Assembly (NCBI GenBank): GCA_031177985.1
Contig: JAPSJW010000003.1
Span: 372,001 to 436,000, forward strand
DNA from: Microbacteriaceae bacterium
GTDB taxonomy: Bacteria > Actinomycetota > Actinomycetes > Actinomycetales > Microbacteriaceae
Direction: 5' to 3'
Length of the DNA: 64,000 nucleotides
Shown here one piece after another: positions 14,564 through 18,053 of this stretch (the stretch's first letter is position 1; every line of letters starts with the position of its first letter). The position numbers and the translations under genes are program-made. The notes under the pieces were generated by a model. It saw nothing but the letters and a program-made list of their open reading frames with translations. It was not told the DNA's origin and searched no databases.

Positions 14564-15324
14564 TGAGCATGGCGACGATCGAAGGACAGGCCGCTCCCCC
14601 GCCCGCCGAGGTGCAGTCGTTCACCGTGACGCTGCTCATCCGCCGGTTCGATCCCGAGAAGGACACCGAGCCCTACTGGCAGGACTTCGACGTCGAGATG
14701 TACCCGACCGACCGGGTGCTCGACGCGCTGCACAAGATCAAGTGGGAGCAGGACGGCTCGCTCACCTTCCGGCGCAGCTGCGCCCACGGCATCTGCGGCT
14801 CCGATGCGATGCGCATCAACGGCCGCAACCGCCTGGCCTGCAAGACGCTCATCAAGGACCTCGACATCACGAAGCCGATCTACGTCGAGGCGATCAAGGG
14901 CCTTCCCCTCGAGAAGGACCTCATCGTCGACATGGAGCCGTTCTTCGAGTCCTACCGGCAGATCCAGCCCTTCCTCATCGCGAGCTCGAAGCCCGAGAAG
15001 GAGCGCATCCAGACGGTCGCTCAGCGCGAGCGCTTCGACGACACGACCAAGTGCATCCTCTGCGCCGCCTGCACCTCGAGCTGCCCGGTCTTCTGGACCG
15101 ACGGCCAGTACTTCGGACCCGCGGCGATCGTCAACGCGCACCGGTTCATCTTCGACTCGCGCGACGAGGGCTCGCAGGTGCGCCTCGACATCCTCAACGA
15201 CAAGGAGGGCGTGTGGCGCTGCCGCACGACCTTCAACTGCTCCGAGGCATGCCCCCGCGGTATCCAGGTGACGAAGGCGATCCAGGAGGTCAAGCAGGCC
15301 ATCCTGCGCGGCGGGAATGCCTGA
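14563..15324 (+). CDS. sdhB: Succinate dehydrogenase iron-sulfur subunit
   Basis: The protein has 253 residues. The [2Fe-2S] motif SCAHGICGSDAMRINGRNRLAC and the downstream cysteine clusters CILCAACTSSCP and CRTTFNCSEACPRG (for [4Fe-4S] and [3Fe-4S]) are complete. It passes electrons from SdhA to the membrane quinone site. The start overlaps the sdhA stop as TGATG. It ends the operon, and a hairpin terminator follows 42 bases later. Confidence 0.97.
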   Translation: MSMATIEGQAAPPPAEVQSFTVTLLIRRFDPEKDTEPYWQDFDVEMYPTDRVLDALHKIKWEQDGSLTFRRSCAHGICGSDAMRINGRNRLACKTLIKDLDITKPIYVEAIKGLPLEKDLIVDMEPFFESYRQIQPFLIASSKPEKERIQTVAQRERFDDTTKCILCAACTSSCPVFWTDGQYFGPAAIVNAHRFIFDSRDEGSQVRLDILNDKEGVWRCRTTFNCSEACPRGIQVTKAIQEVKQAILRGGNA

Positions 15325-15433: not shown

Positions 15434-15483
15434 GACGCCGGCCCCGCCACGACCCTGGGCGATCGTGACGGGGGACCGGCGTC
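15434..15483 (-). terminator. Likely terminator of the sigma-factor gene
   Basis: GACGCCGG pairs with CCGGCGTC, with an inner CACGA/TCGTG stem. Read on the minus strand, the hairpin is followed by CTCTTCTTCTTCGC, a U-rich run. It lies about 120 bases past the stop of the gene ending at 15602. The remaining 15325-15601 sequence shows no gene. Confidence 0.5.
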
Positions 15484-15601
15484 GGGACCCGCGGGAGGGG
15501 GGTGACGTCTGGGAAAAGCTCCCGGTCGGATCCCTTCACCCGAAGAGACGGGGGATCGGCTCCGCTATGACGCGGACCCGGGAAAGAAAACCCGGCGGAT
15601 T

Positions 15602-17179
15602 TCAGCCGATGACGTTGAGCGGCAGACCGGCTCCGGTGCCGCCGACGCTCGCCAGGGAGAGCGGCTTGAGCAGCCCGTCCACGAGGCCGCCGACGATCCC
15701 CCCGAGCAGTCCCTGATCGACCTTCTGCACGAGGTCGAGCCCCTGCAGGCCGTTAGGCAGAGCCGACACCGCCAGCGTGAAGGTCCCGTCCTGGCCGACC
15801 GTGGTCGTGGCGTAGACGATTCCCGCCGCCTGCAGCGAGACCTGAGCGCCGGGAGTTCCGGTTCCGGTGAGGTTCAGGGAGAGGTCGACGCCGACGACCC
15901 CGCCGGGCGCGGTGTGGCCGGGGGGCGGGCTCTGGCCTCCCGTGACCACGTCGACGACGTCGCCGACGATGCCGCCGTCCTCAGACGGCTCTCCGCCGGG
16001 CACGTCCACGGAGTCGGCGGGCTGCGGGATGGTGGTCGGGTCGGCCGGGTCTCCGGCCACGGGCGCATCCGTCGCCGGGGTGCCCCGCGGAGGCGCCACC
16101 GCGACATCGCCCTCGTGGGTCGGGCCGGGCGTGGGGGTCGGCGTGGCGACGAACTGCGCGCTGGTGGCGACGACCTCCTGCGGCGGCGCGGTCGCGACGA
16201 CCACCGAGCCGGTGACCGCCGCGGCGAGCGCGAGGCCGCCGACGAGCGCCGGCGCCGATGCCATGGAGAACAGCCCTGCGCCCGCGGCTGCGGCGGCAGG
16301 AGCCGACGCGGATGCCGCGGTCGCCGTTGCGGCGAGCGCGTCGATGGCGTGCGGCACGGCGGGCACCGCCTCCGCGGCGACGGCGGACGCGTCCCCGAGC
16401 GAGGAGAGCCACGCACCGCCGGCGACGCCGCCGAGCAGGAGGGGCATCAGCACGAGGGCGAGCTTGGAGCCGACCTCGTCGACCTCGTCCGCGATGATGC
16501 TGCACTTCGAGCACGAGGCCAGGTGGGTCTCGATCCGGGTGGTCTCCCTGGCTGTCAGTCCGCGGCGGGCGTGGTCTCCGATGCGGGCGACGGTCCAGCG
16601 GCACTCGCCGGACTCGGTGGAGTCGTTGACGTGGGCCTGGAGCCAGGCCTTCCGCAGCCCTTCACGGGCCCGGTAGGAGAGCGCGGCGACGCCATTGGCG
16701 GAGAGCCCGAGGATCGGGGCGACCTCGTGCGGGTCCATCCCCTCGACCTCGGTGTACCAGAGCACCGACTGCCAGCGCTCCGGCAGGGCGCGGAACGCCT
16801 GGGCGGTGAGCGTCTTGTCGAGCGCGGCGGCGGCAGGGTCGCCGAGCGTCGCCGGGTCCTCGAAGTCCTCGATCTGGTCCACGTTCACGTCTCGGGAGGC
16901 CGCTCCCCAGCTCGAGGCCAAGTTGCGGATGGTGGTGTACAGGTACGGCCGGAATGCGCCGTTCGGGCCGCCGCCCGCCAGAACACGTTGGTAGATGCGC
17001 GTGTATGCCTCGCTGACGAGGTCATCCGCATCGATCGACGACGTGAACTGGCGAGCGACGCGCACCCCTGAGCGATAGTGACGACGCCACAGCTCGGCGA
17101 ACGCGCGCTGATCCCCCGCGCGCGTCTGCTCGATCAGAGCCCCGTCCGAGGTGGTCAGCCCCGAATCCTGCTCGCTCAT
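15602..17179 (-). CDS. ECF sigma factor fused to zinc-finger, membrane and extracytoplasmic regions
   Basis: The protein has 525 residues. Residues 15-95 look like sigma region 2 (DADDLVSEAYTRIYQRV) and 125-180 like region 4 (ALPERWQSVLWYTEVEG, then a helix-turn-helix). Residues 193-226 form a zf-HC2-type zinc finger (C193, H219, CSKC at 223-226) as found in anti-sigma factors. Two hydrophobic segments follow at about 239-260 and 306-330, then a Pro/Thr/Ala-rich linker and a C-terminal Ig-like or beta-rich tail. It looks like an ECF sigma factor carrying its own membrane-bound regulator. ATG 17179 is chosen, although a GGGGG only one base upstream is a poor ribosome binding site and an in-frame ATG at 17221 remains possible. 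Confidence 0.8.
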   Translation of the reverse strand: MSEQDSGLTTSDGALIEQTRAGDQRAFAELWRRHYRSGVRVARQFTSSIDADDLVSEAYTRIYQRVLAGGGPNGAFRPYLYTTIRNLASSWGAASRDVNVDQIEDFEDPATLGDPAAAALDKTLTAQAFRALPERWQSVLWYTEVEGMDPHEVAPILGLSANGVAALSYRAREGLRKAWLQAHVNDSTESGECRWTVARIGDHARRGLTARETTRIETHLASCSKCSIIADEVDEVGSKLALVLMPLLLGGVAGGAWLSSLGDASAVAAEAVPAVPHAIDALAATATAASASAPAAAAAGAGLFSMASAPALVGGLALAAAVTGSVVVATAPPQEVVATSAQFVATPTPTPGPTHEGDVAVAPPRGTPATDAPVAGDPADPTTIPQPADSVDVPGGEPSEDGGIVGDVVDVVTGGQSPPPGHTAPGGVVGVDLSLNLTGTGTPGAQVSLQAAGIVYATTTVGQDGTFTLAVSALPNGLQGLDLVQKVDQGLLGGIVGGLVDGLLKPLSLASVGGTGAGLPLNVIG

Positions 17180-17190
17180 CCCCCTGATCC

Positions 17191-17228
17191 ATTTCCCGGG
17201 CCCTCTCCTTGTGTCCCTCATGGGAAAT
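17191..17228. promoter_or_regulatory. Inverted repeat in the leader of the sigma-factor gene
   Basis: ATTTCCC (17191-17197) and GGGAAAT (17222-17228) are exact complements separated by 24 bases. They lie just upstream of the sigma gene start and could be an operator or an mRNA hairpin. Confidence 0.25.
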
Positions 17229-17318
17229 TGGGTTGCTGGGTGCTTCCCTTGTCCCAAGAGACGGAGTTCGCCGTCGTCTATGACGCCCGATTCGCCACCT
17301 TCTCGAAGATTTCCTCCC

Positions 17319-17330: not shown

Positions 17331-18053
17331 ATGACCGACACGATGCCTGCCACCCACTCGGGGGTCACGGCCCTCTACATCAACACCACGCTCAAGAAGT
17401 CGCCTGAGAGCAGCCACACCCAGGCCCTCATCGACCAGAGCGCAGAGCTGCTGCGGTCCGCCGGCGCGACGACGGATGTGGTCCGCGCGGTCGACCATCG
17501 CATCGCTCCAGGAGTGCTGCCCGACATGCGGGAGGAGGGCTGGCCCGAGGACGAGTGGCCGGAGCTCGCGAAGCGGGTGATGGCCGCGGACATCGTCATC
17601 CTCGCCGGGCCGATCTGGCTCGGCGACCAGTCGTCGGTGATGCGCTCCGTCATCGAGCGGCTGTACGGCCACTCCAGCGAGACGAATGAGAAGGGGCAGG
17701 GCATCTTCTTCGGCAAGGTCGGCGGCGTCATCGTCTCGGGCAACGAGGACGGAGCCAAGCACGTCGCCTCCAAGGTGCTGTACTCGCTGCAGCACATCGG
17801 CTTCAGCATCCCGCCGCAGGCCGAGGCGGCCTGGCTCGGCCCGATCGGTCCGGGGCCCAGCTACCTGGACCAGGGGTCGGGCGGACTCGAGACCGACTTC
17901 ACGAATCGCGCGCTCACCTTCCTCAGCTGGAACACCCTCCACCTCGCGACGCTGCTGAAGTCGGCGGGCGGCTACCCCTCCTACGGCAACAGCTCCGACG
18001 GATGGAGCGAGGGCGAGCGCTACGGATTCCGCGGCTTGAGCAGGGCGGACTGA
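17331..18053 (+). CDS. Flavodoxin-fold NAD(P)H-dependent oxidoreductase family protein
   Basis: The protein has 240 residues. It begins with a beta strand and the phosphate-loop-like NTTLKKSPESSHTQALID, and has ILAGPIWLGDQSSVMRSVIERLYG, typical of FMN-binding flavodoxin-like reductases. It is likely cytoplasmic and uses FMN. Its substrate is unknown. It stands alone between the divergent sigma-factor gene and the convergent AAA gene, whose stop is two bases away. TAGCGT six bases before ATG 17331 indicates a leaderless mRNA. Confidence 0.78.
   Translation: MTDTMPATHSGVTALYINTTLKKSPESSHTQALIDQSAELLRSAGATTDVVRAVDHRIAPGVLPDMREEGWPEDEWPELAKRVMAADIVILAGPIWLGDQSSVMRSVIERLYGHSSETNEKGQGIFFGKVGGVIVSGNEDGAKHVASKVLYSLQHIGFSIPPQAEAAWLGPIGPGPSYLDQGSGGLETDFTNRALTFLSWNTLHLATLLKSAGGYPSYGNSSDGWSEGERYGFRGLSRAD

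Follow-up and report, generated by a model that had tools for sequence, protein, structure and literature searches.

Few targets or promoters are known for the fused ECF sigma factors of Actinobacteria, in which a zinc-finger domain of the anti-sigma type lies C-terminal to the sigma part in one protein. A gene of this kind, found in the 64,000-nucleotide stretch of Microbacteriaceae DNA analysed here (the window), raises the question of what such a protein transcribes and how its own gene is controlled. Our preferred answer, to which we assign a probability of roughly 0.6, is that the gene encodes an autoregulated, membrane-tethered ECF sigma factor with a fused anti-sigma part, and that an adjoining small RNA is its closest target. 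Judged from its sequence, the fused protein itself is of a known kind (ECF48/ECF52/ECF53), with an Ig tail. What is newly noticed is a pair of promoter-like motifs and a structured stretch in the DNA around the gene.

A single reading frame on the minus strand

The original prediction placed one 525-residue frame at positions 15602-17179 and gave no strand. These coordinates are right, and the strand is the minus strand: the frame starts with the ATG at 17179, its codons run from 17179 to 15605 and its TGA stop ends at 15602, while a plus-strand reading of the same interval meets an internal stop. A frameshift or a second start could have divided the frame into two proteins. This is not the case, as the nine nearest homologues (57-63% identity) all have a single open frame without stops, and their aligned starts agree with the ATG at 17179. 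Two in-frame start codons lie 5' of this ATG, a TTG at 17257 and an ATG at 17221. In most of the nearest homologues the sequence GGATCAGGGGG (positions 17179-17192 of the window) abuts the start codon, nearer to it than a usual ribosome-binding site. The 3' neighbour converges on the sigma gene, and from its sequence we take it to be sdhB (stop at 15324). On the 5' side lies a divergent 240-residue frame (17331-18053), presumably flavin reductase-like to judge by its sequence. Synteny of this divergent neighbour found no support, as tblastn against 22 loci gave no match.

Homologues are found at E<=1e-10 in 60 of 150 family genomes, and the nearest named relatives are Microbacteriaceae, for example Rhodoglobus, Salinibacterium and Glaciihabitans. 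The genome of the window contains one paralogue (L050; G000:C7:657359-658762, minus strand), which is 45% identical, lies in a 781-codon open frame and has no strict form of the motif described below adjoining it. The homologues L048 (genome G134), L049 and L047 (genome G009) are apparently frameshifted, which could be due to assembly errors or decay. An evolved split into separate sigma and anti-sigma genes was considered for G134 and G009 and rejected: the sequence in frame past the break is unrelated, and both were therefore treated as frameshifts. L016 is also frameshifted and was excluded from the protein alignments; its frameshift accounts for a downstream motif located 676 nt past the apparent stop.

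A sigma factor, a zinc finger and a membrane part in one protein

The ECF sigma part occupies residues 26-178 (16646-17104, minus strand). The NCBIfam profile TIGR02937 (sigma70-ECF) matches over this whole range with 65.3 bits, for a cut-off of 42.9, and Pfam Sigma70_r2 matches residues 30-88 with 32.7 bits (cut-off 24). Sigma70_r4_2, at residues 127-173, alone stays below its cut-off, with 19.8 bits for 25.7. The protein thus has regions 2 and 4, as first proposed, and no region 3, under a sigma70-ECF profile that scores over its cut-off. C-terminal to the sigma part, residues 193-226 (16502-16603, minus strand; G000:C18:388502-388603) match the anti-sigma-type domain zf-HC2 of Pfam with 32.5 bits (cut-off 22.2). 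The ligands previously named for this finger, C193, H219, C223 and C226, show no variation across a 14-row homologue alignment. The proposal that a sigma factor shares one protein with a finger of anti-sigma type and a membrane-bound part is therefore backed by sequence, and it fits the published model of ECF48, ECF52 and ECF53. In that model a single protein comprises the sigma part, a zinc finger, one or two transmembrane helices and a long extension that is often rich in proline, and its release by proteolysis is proposed (PMC8999054, PMC5826349).

Two hydrophobic segments are found at residues 240-258 (16406-16462, minus strand) and 311-329 (16193-16249, minus strand), with Kyte-Doolittle means of 2.01 and 2.13, and the protein ends with a 196-residue tail. 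Both segments have counterparts in all 14 homologues with an intact frame. Lysine and arginine make up 1.5% of the tail versus 10.0% of the sigma part and are absent between the two segments; in the tails of the 14 intact homologues they amount to 0.6-5.2%. Being almost without lysine and arginine, the tail is probably extracytoplasmic, and the sigma part must be on the cytoplasmic side. A cytoplasmic N terminus and an exported tail require an odd number of spanning segments, so that probably only one of the two crosses the membrane. The two hydrophobic segments of the original prediction stand, but two spanning helices together with an outside tail do not. In zinc anti-sigma domains, the last sigma-binding helix sits roughly where the first segment is found, and this segment begins 14 residues past C226. 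The second segment is the likelier spanning helix, with the first belonging to the anti-sigma part; the first may also be the one that spans, and the second not.

Structure prediction of the full-length protein with AlphaFold2 (mean pLDDT 61.2) is uninformative on topology, residues 238-420 scoring below 50. Modelled separately, the tail forms a small strand-rich domain (mean pLDDT 80.7). As a Foldseek query, this model gave no match at E<=0.001, and the Ig assignment consequently rests on Pfam. At the tail end (residues 425-525; 15605-15907, minus strand), residues 435-484 match Big_6, 'Bacterial Ig domain', with 29.3 bits versus a cut-off of 27.6, and all 14 homologous tails match at E<=1, in agreement with the Ig-like tail proposed earlier.

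By its sigma part and zinc finger, and probably also by its membrane part and long extension, the window protein resembles ECF52, ECF53 and ECF48. It differs from ECF52, described as carrying a carbohydrate-binding module at the C terminus, by its Big_6 Ig domain; a full-length Pfam scan at E<=1 found no carbohydrate-binding module. The lack of a separate anti-sigma gene next to the sigma gene had been regarded as unusual. It is not, since the known fused groups show the same absence.

A motif of fixed spacing flanks the gene

Alignment of the homologous loci revealed a promoter-like motif upstream of the sigma gene. CGTCATA (CGTCATC in L014), exactly 16 nt and GTCTC (GTCTT in L005) precede 12 of the 15 nearest homologues. 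In the window, the exact CGTCATA-N16-GTCTC occurs at two sites, both on the strand of the gene, one upstream of it (17285-17258) and a second one starting 30 nt past the stop codon (15572-15545). When two mismatches were allowed, the window contained seven sites versus 5.2 expected; as this is no excess over chance, we gave weight only to exact sites. Assembly-wide, the looser CGTCAT-N16..18-GTCTC has 13 sites, among which only the two beside the sigma gene start with CGTCATA, and the strict GCGTCATA-N16-GTCTCT is found only at two sites in 3.16 Mb, both beside the sigma gene.

The fixed spacing is also seen in relatives. In 30 homologue loci, CGTCAT-N18-TCT occurs 49 times versus 0.95 expected under a Markov model (20 simulations per locus), and other spacings give 0-8 sites, except for 45 at spacing 20 that correspond to the TCTCT repeat. 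A set of 80 named loci, some from the same genomes as the 30, gave 62 sites at the right spacing; spacing 20 had 43 and the remaining spacings 2-11. Two copies are present in 22 of the 30 loci, one of them always upstream; the second lies past the stop in 11 loci and is divergent in the other 11. Four loci have a downstream copy only, one has an upstream copy only and three have none. Among the 80 named loci, only nine show the upstream-plus-downstream pair. Cultured relatives in which both copies are present include Salinibacterium amurskyense DSM 16400 (L149) and Schumannella soli 10F1D-1 (L169).

The motif can be compared with the promoters of two known systems. ECF41 factors are described with the promoter TGTCACA-n16-CGTC, a target adjoining the sigma gene and a C-terminal extension (PMC3426412). 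The window system has a similar layout, a proposed target next to the sigma gene and a C-terminal extension, and the -35 letters differ. The extension of ECF41 is soluble, without a membrane part. SCO4117 of Streptomyces coelicolor is presented as the first member of ECF52 to have been characterised (PMC5826349). Positive autoregulation was reported for it (PMC8999054, PMC5826349), and the promoter CSGYN-17-SRHA was proposed. This proposed motif differs from CGTCATA-N16-GTCTC.

The distribution of the motif bears on the question of which protein reads it. In the family, GCGTCATA-N16-GTCTCT has 37 sites in 21 of 150 genomes, for two sites with a reversed control, and 20 of these 21 genomes fall among the 60 that have a homologue. 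This co-occurrence is partly trivial, because many of the sites lie beside the gene. The exception is G038, an 83% complete genome with three strict sites and a best homologue match of E 9.9e-4. Such a genome would be expected if some other regulator or sigma factor recognised the motif and the gene were not self-controlled, an explanation that we consider highly improbable given that every other strict-motif genome has a homologue and that the motif has the spacing and layout of an ECF promoter. We thus favour the fused sigma factor as the reader of the motif, and the motif as the probable promoter of the sigma gene.

A putative structured RNA behind the second motif

The second motif is followed by a stretch of about 105 nt (15434-15538, minus strand; approximate ends, deduced from the motif and from folding) that would be transcribed from this site as a small structured RNA. 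In each of 12 sequences the stretch folds better than the shuffle mean (z from -2.36 to -6.28). No shuffle out of 200 was equally stable for 10 of the sequences; three of 200 were for L047 and four of 200 for L035. Folding and covariation define a 3' stem-loop, SL3 (15434-15483, minus strand). In the 12 sequences, SL3 shows 31 doubly changed cells versus 15.0±2.9 after shuffling and 6-16 in slid controls. Extending the comparison to 22 sequences, in an alignment fitted to the model, gave 94 cells versus 32.4±4.0 and 12-21. The SL3 loop is CCCAG or near it in many sequences, with UCCCAG in many relatives and GCCCAG in the window, and the stretch behind the downstream motif carries C-rich loops. 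A coding function was considered for this stretch and rejected, the 12 sequences having no start codon or frame in common. It therefore unites a promoter-like motif of predicted activity with a covarying structure and no common open reading frame, as expected of a small RNA.

The RNA has no Rfam match above gathering thresholds, in eight loci and the window stretch. At E<=1 the window stretch gave only two miRNA matches, both below threshold and lying elsewhere than the RNA, which were taken as chance. An FMN riboswitch (RF00050, 91.1 bits) is located near one homologue (L038:809-940, minus strand). With a search model, R1, the RNA of the window genome scores 66.1 bits, followed by the upstream motif with 23.7 bits (E 0.005) and then by a match at E 0.29. 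R1 matches 25 of 150 family genomes at E<=0.01, and many of the weak matches that we inspected stem from the motif preceding other genes. Across the order, five of 198 genomes match at E<=0.001, one of them outside the family (G262, E 4.3e-4).

A convergent sdhB follows in most of the 12 loci that we examined, and in Salinibacterium-type loci (L149, L035) the last hairpin has A- and T-rich flanks resembling those of a bidirectional terminator. The sigma gene could then be an ordinary autoregulated one, followed by a strong, perhaps bidirectional, terminator before sdhB and by no functional RNA. We find this unlikely: a terminator has no need to begin with this same promoter motif of 28 nt, or to conserve a loop while its stem changes, and the stretch is kept in L043, L048 and L020, where the next gene is not a convergent sdhB. 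A transcript that acts on its neighbours instead of in trans, as a leader, an antisense RNA or the leader relic of a lost protein gene, would suit its direction toward sdhB, the epimerase-like frame that comes next in L048 and L020, and the divergent motif that leads to a protein frame in Aeromicrobium and Promicromonosporaceae (see below). The predicted RNA nevertheless stops at 15434, some 110 nt short of the stop codon of sdhB at 15324, and a leader relic would not preserve its stem pairing through many double changes, as seen here; we judge an explanation of this kind, for the downstream or the divergent transcript, to be quite improbable. The reading that we retain is that of a small RNA acting in trans. 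Its pairing with the sigma leader, the only target tried, gave no signal beyond shuffles in 10 pairs (z from -0.91 to +1.09).

The second motif is divergent in a sister clade

In a sister clade the second motif copy is not downstream of the sigma gene but divergent from it, and R1 matches are weak there. Of 19 divergent putative transcripts, 11 have a hairpin with at least 5 pairs whose loop contains CCCGAA or CCCGAG, versus 4.3% of random windows from the same loci. The two placements, downstream and divergent, sort with a tree built from 111 sigma parts and require two changes, in a count where some genomes appear twice, 44 motif-less and 10 upstream-only rows are uncounted and one row with both copies is scored as downstream. 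A more general proposal, for which we see somewhat better than even odds, is the following: in this actinobacterial family, tethered sigma factors with their own anti-sigma part would have a dedicated adjoining small RNA under the same promoter, forming a one-protein signal receiver that has one arm for activation and one for repression. Between its downstream and divergent positions the RNA would have moved, and it would have kept a C-rich hairpin loop.

Protein frames are also found on the divergent side. Four family loci have a conserved frame 378-393 nt past the divergent motif. In Aeromicrobium and Promicromonosporaceae (seven loci: L194, L201, L207, L213, L220, L206, L211) a frame of 217-258 residues follows immediately on the divergent motif, and its product may be a target of the sigma factor or of the ancestors of that factor. 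In view of these frames, the second motif may long have been divergent and may once have driven a protein gene. The case for an RNA is best in the clade to which the window belongs.

Proposed mode of action

From these features we infer a cycle of retention and release. At rest, the zf-HC2 part would hold the sigma part, as known zinc-finger anti-sigma factors do, one spanning helix would keep both at the membrane, and the Pro/Thr-rich linker and the Ig domain would lie outside. An envelope signal would then free the sigma part, either by cleavage or through an altered shape of the protein, in line with what is proposed for ECF52. Once free, the sigma part would bind CGTCATA-N16-GTCTC and transcribe its own gene, in a positive feedback, as well as the structured RNA of about 105 nt from the second copy just past the stop; in some relatives it would also transcribe the gene of a choice-of-anchor G surface protein. 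We propose that the RNA pairs with ribosome-binding sites through its C-rich loops, and it would then act as the arm of this response that represses.

For IutY of Pseudomonas putida (ECF243), regulated proteolysis was shown to release the sigma factor (PMC8999054). Like the window protein, IutY is a sigma factor fused to a membrane-bound anti-sigma part; the window system differs from it, since IutY serves iron cell-surface signalling in a Gram-negative bacterium and has another anti-sigma part. The sigma-E factor of Escherichia coli has a separate anti-sigma factor, RseA, and its RNAs are not encoded next to rpoE. It is described as an envelope ECF sigma factor that activates genes and also transcribes the repressing small RNAs MicA, RybB and MicL (PMC8103513). 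A similar two-arm design is proposed for the window locus. If the RNA is real, a Gram-positive envelope-type sigma factor would have the design of sigma-E, with activation by the protein and repression by the RNA, in one locus. An adjoining RNA, putative here, is not mentioned for ECF52, ECF53 and ECF48 in the available parts of their descriptions (PMC8999054, PMC5826349). Titles and abstract openings in the literature searched contained no report of an RNA adjoining a fused ECF gene, nor of the self-control motif. With a fixed-spacing motif and putative adjoining targets, reporters can be used to test directly which signal acts, how release occurs and what the regulon contains.

Motif sites in front of other genes

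Away from the sigma gene, CGTCATA-N16-GTCTC precedes apparently one orthologous secreted-protein gene in seven genomes (G035, G009, G031, G038, G081, G040 and G112; loci L134, L135, L136, L137, L138, L232 and L233), the frame of G009 being interrupted. The two of these seven proteins that were scanned match the choice-of-anchor G family (NF033766) with 227.5 and 225.7 bits versus 45, and the remaining five were assigned by eye. The window genome has a similar choice-of-anchor G protein (G000:C18:476861), with no motif in front of its gene. Further motif sites precede unrelated or unassigned frames. In G038, the genome without a good homologue, a strict motif (L243; G038:C3:279739, minus strand) lies 66 nt ahead of a start codon in another gene for a sigma factor of ECF type, an arrangement that suggests a possible sigma cascade.
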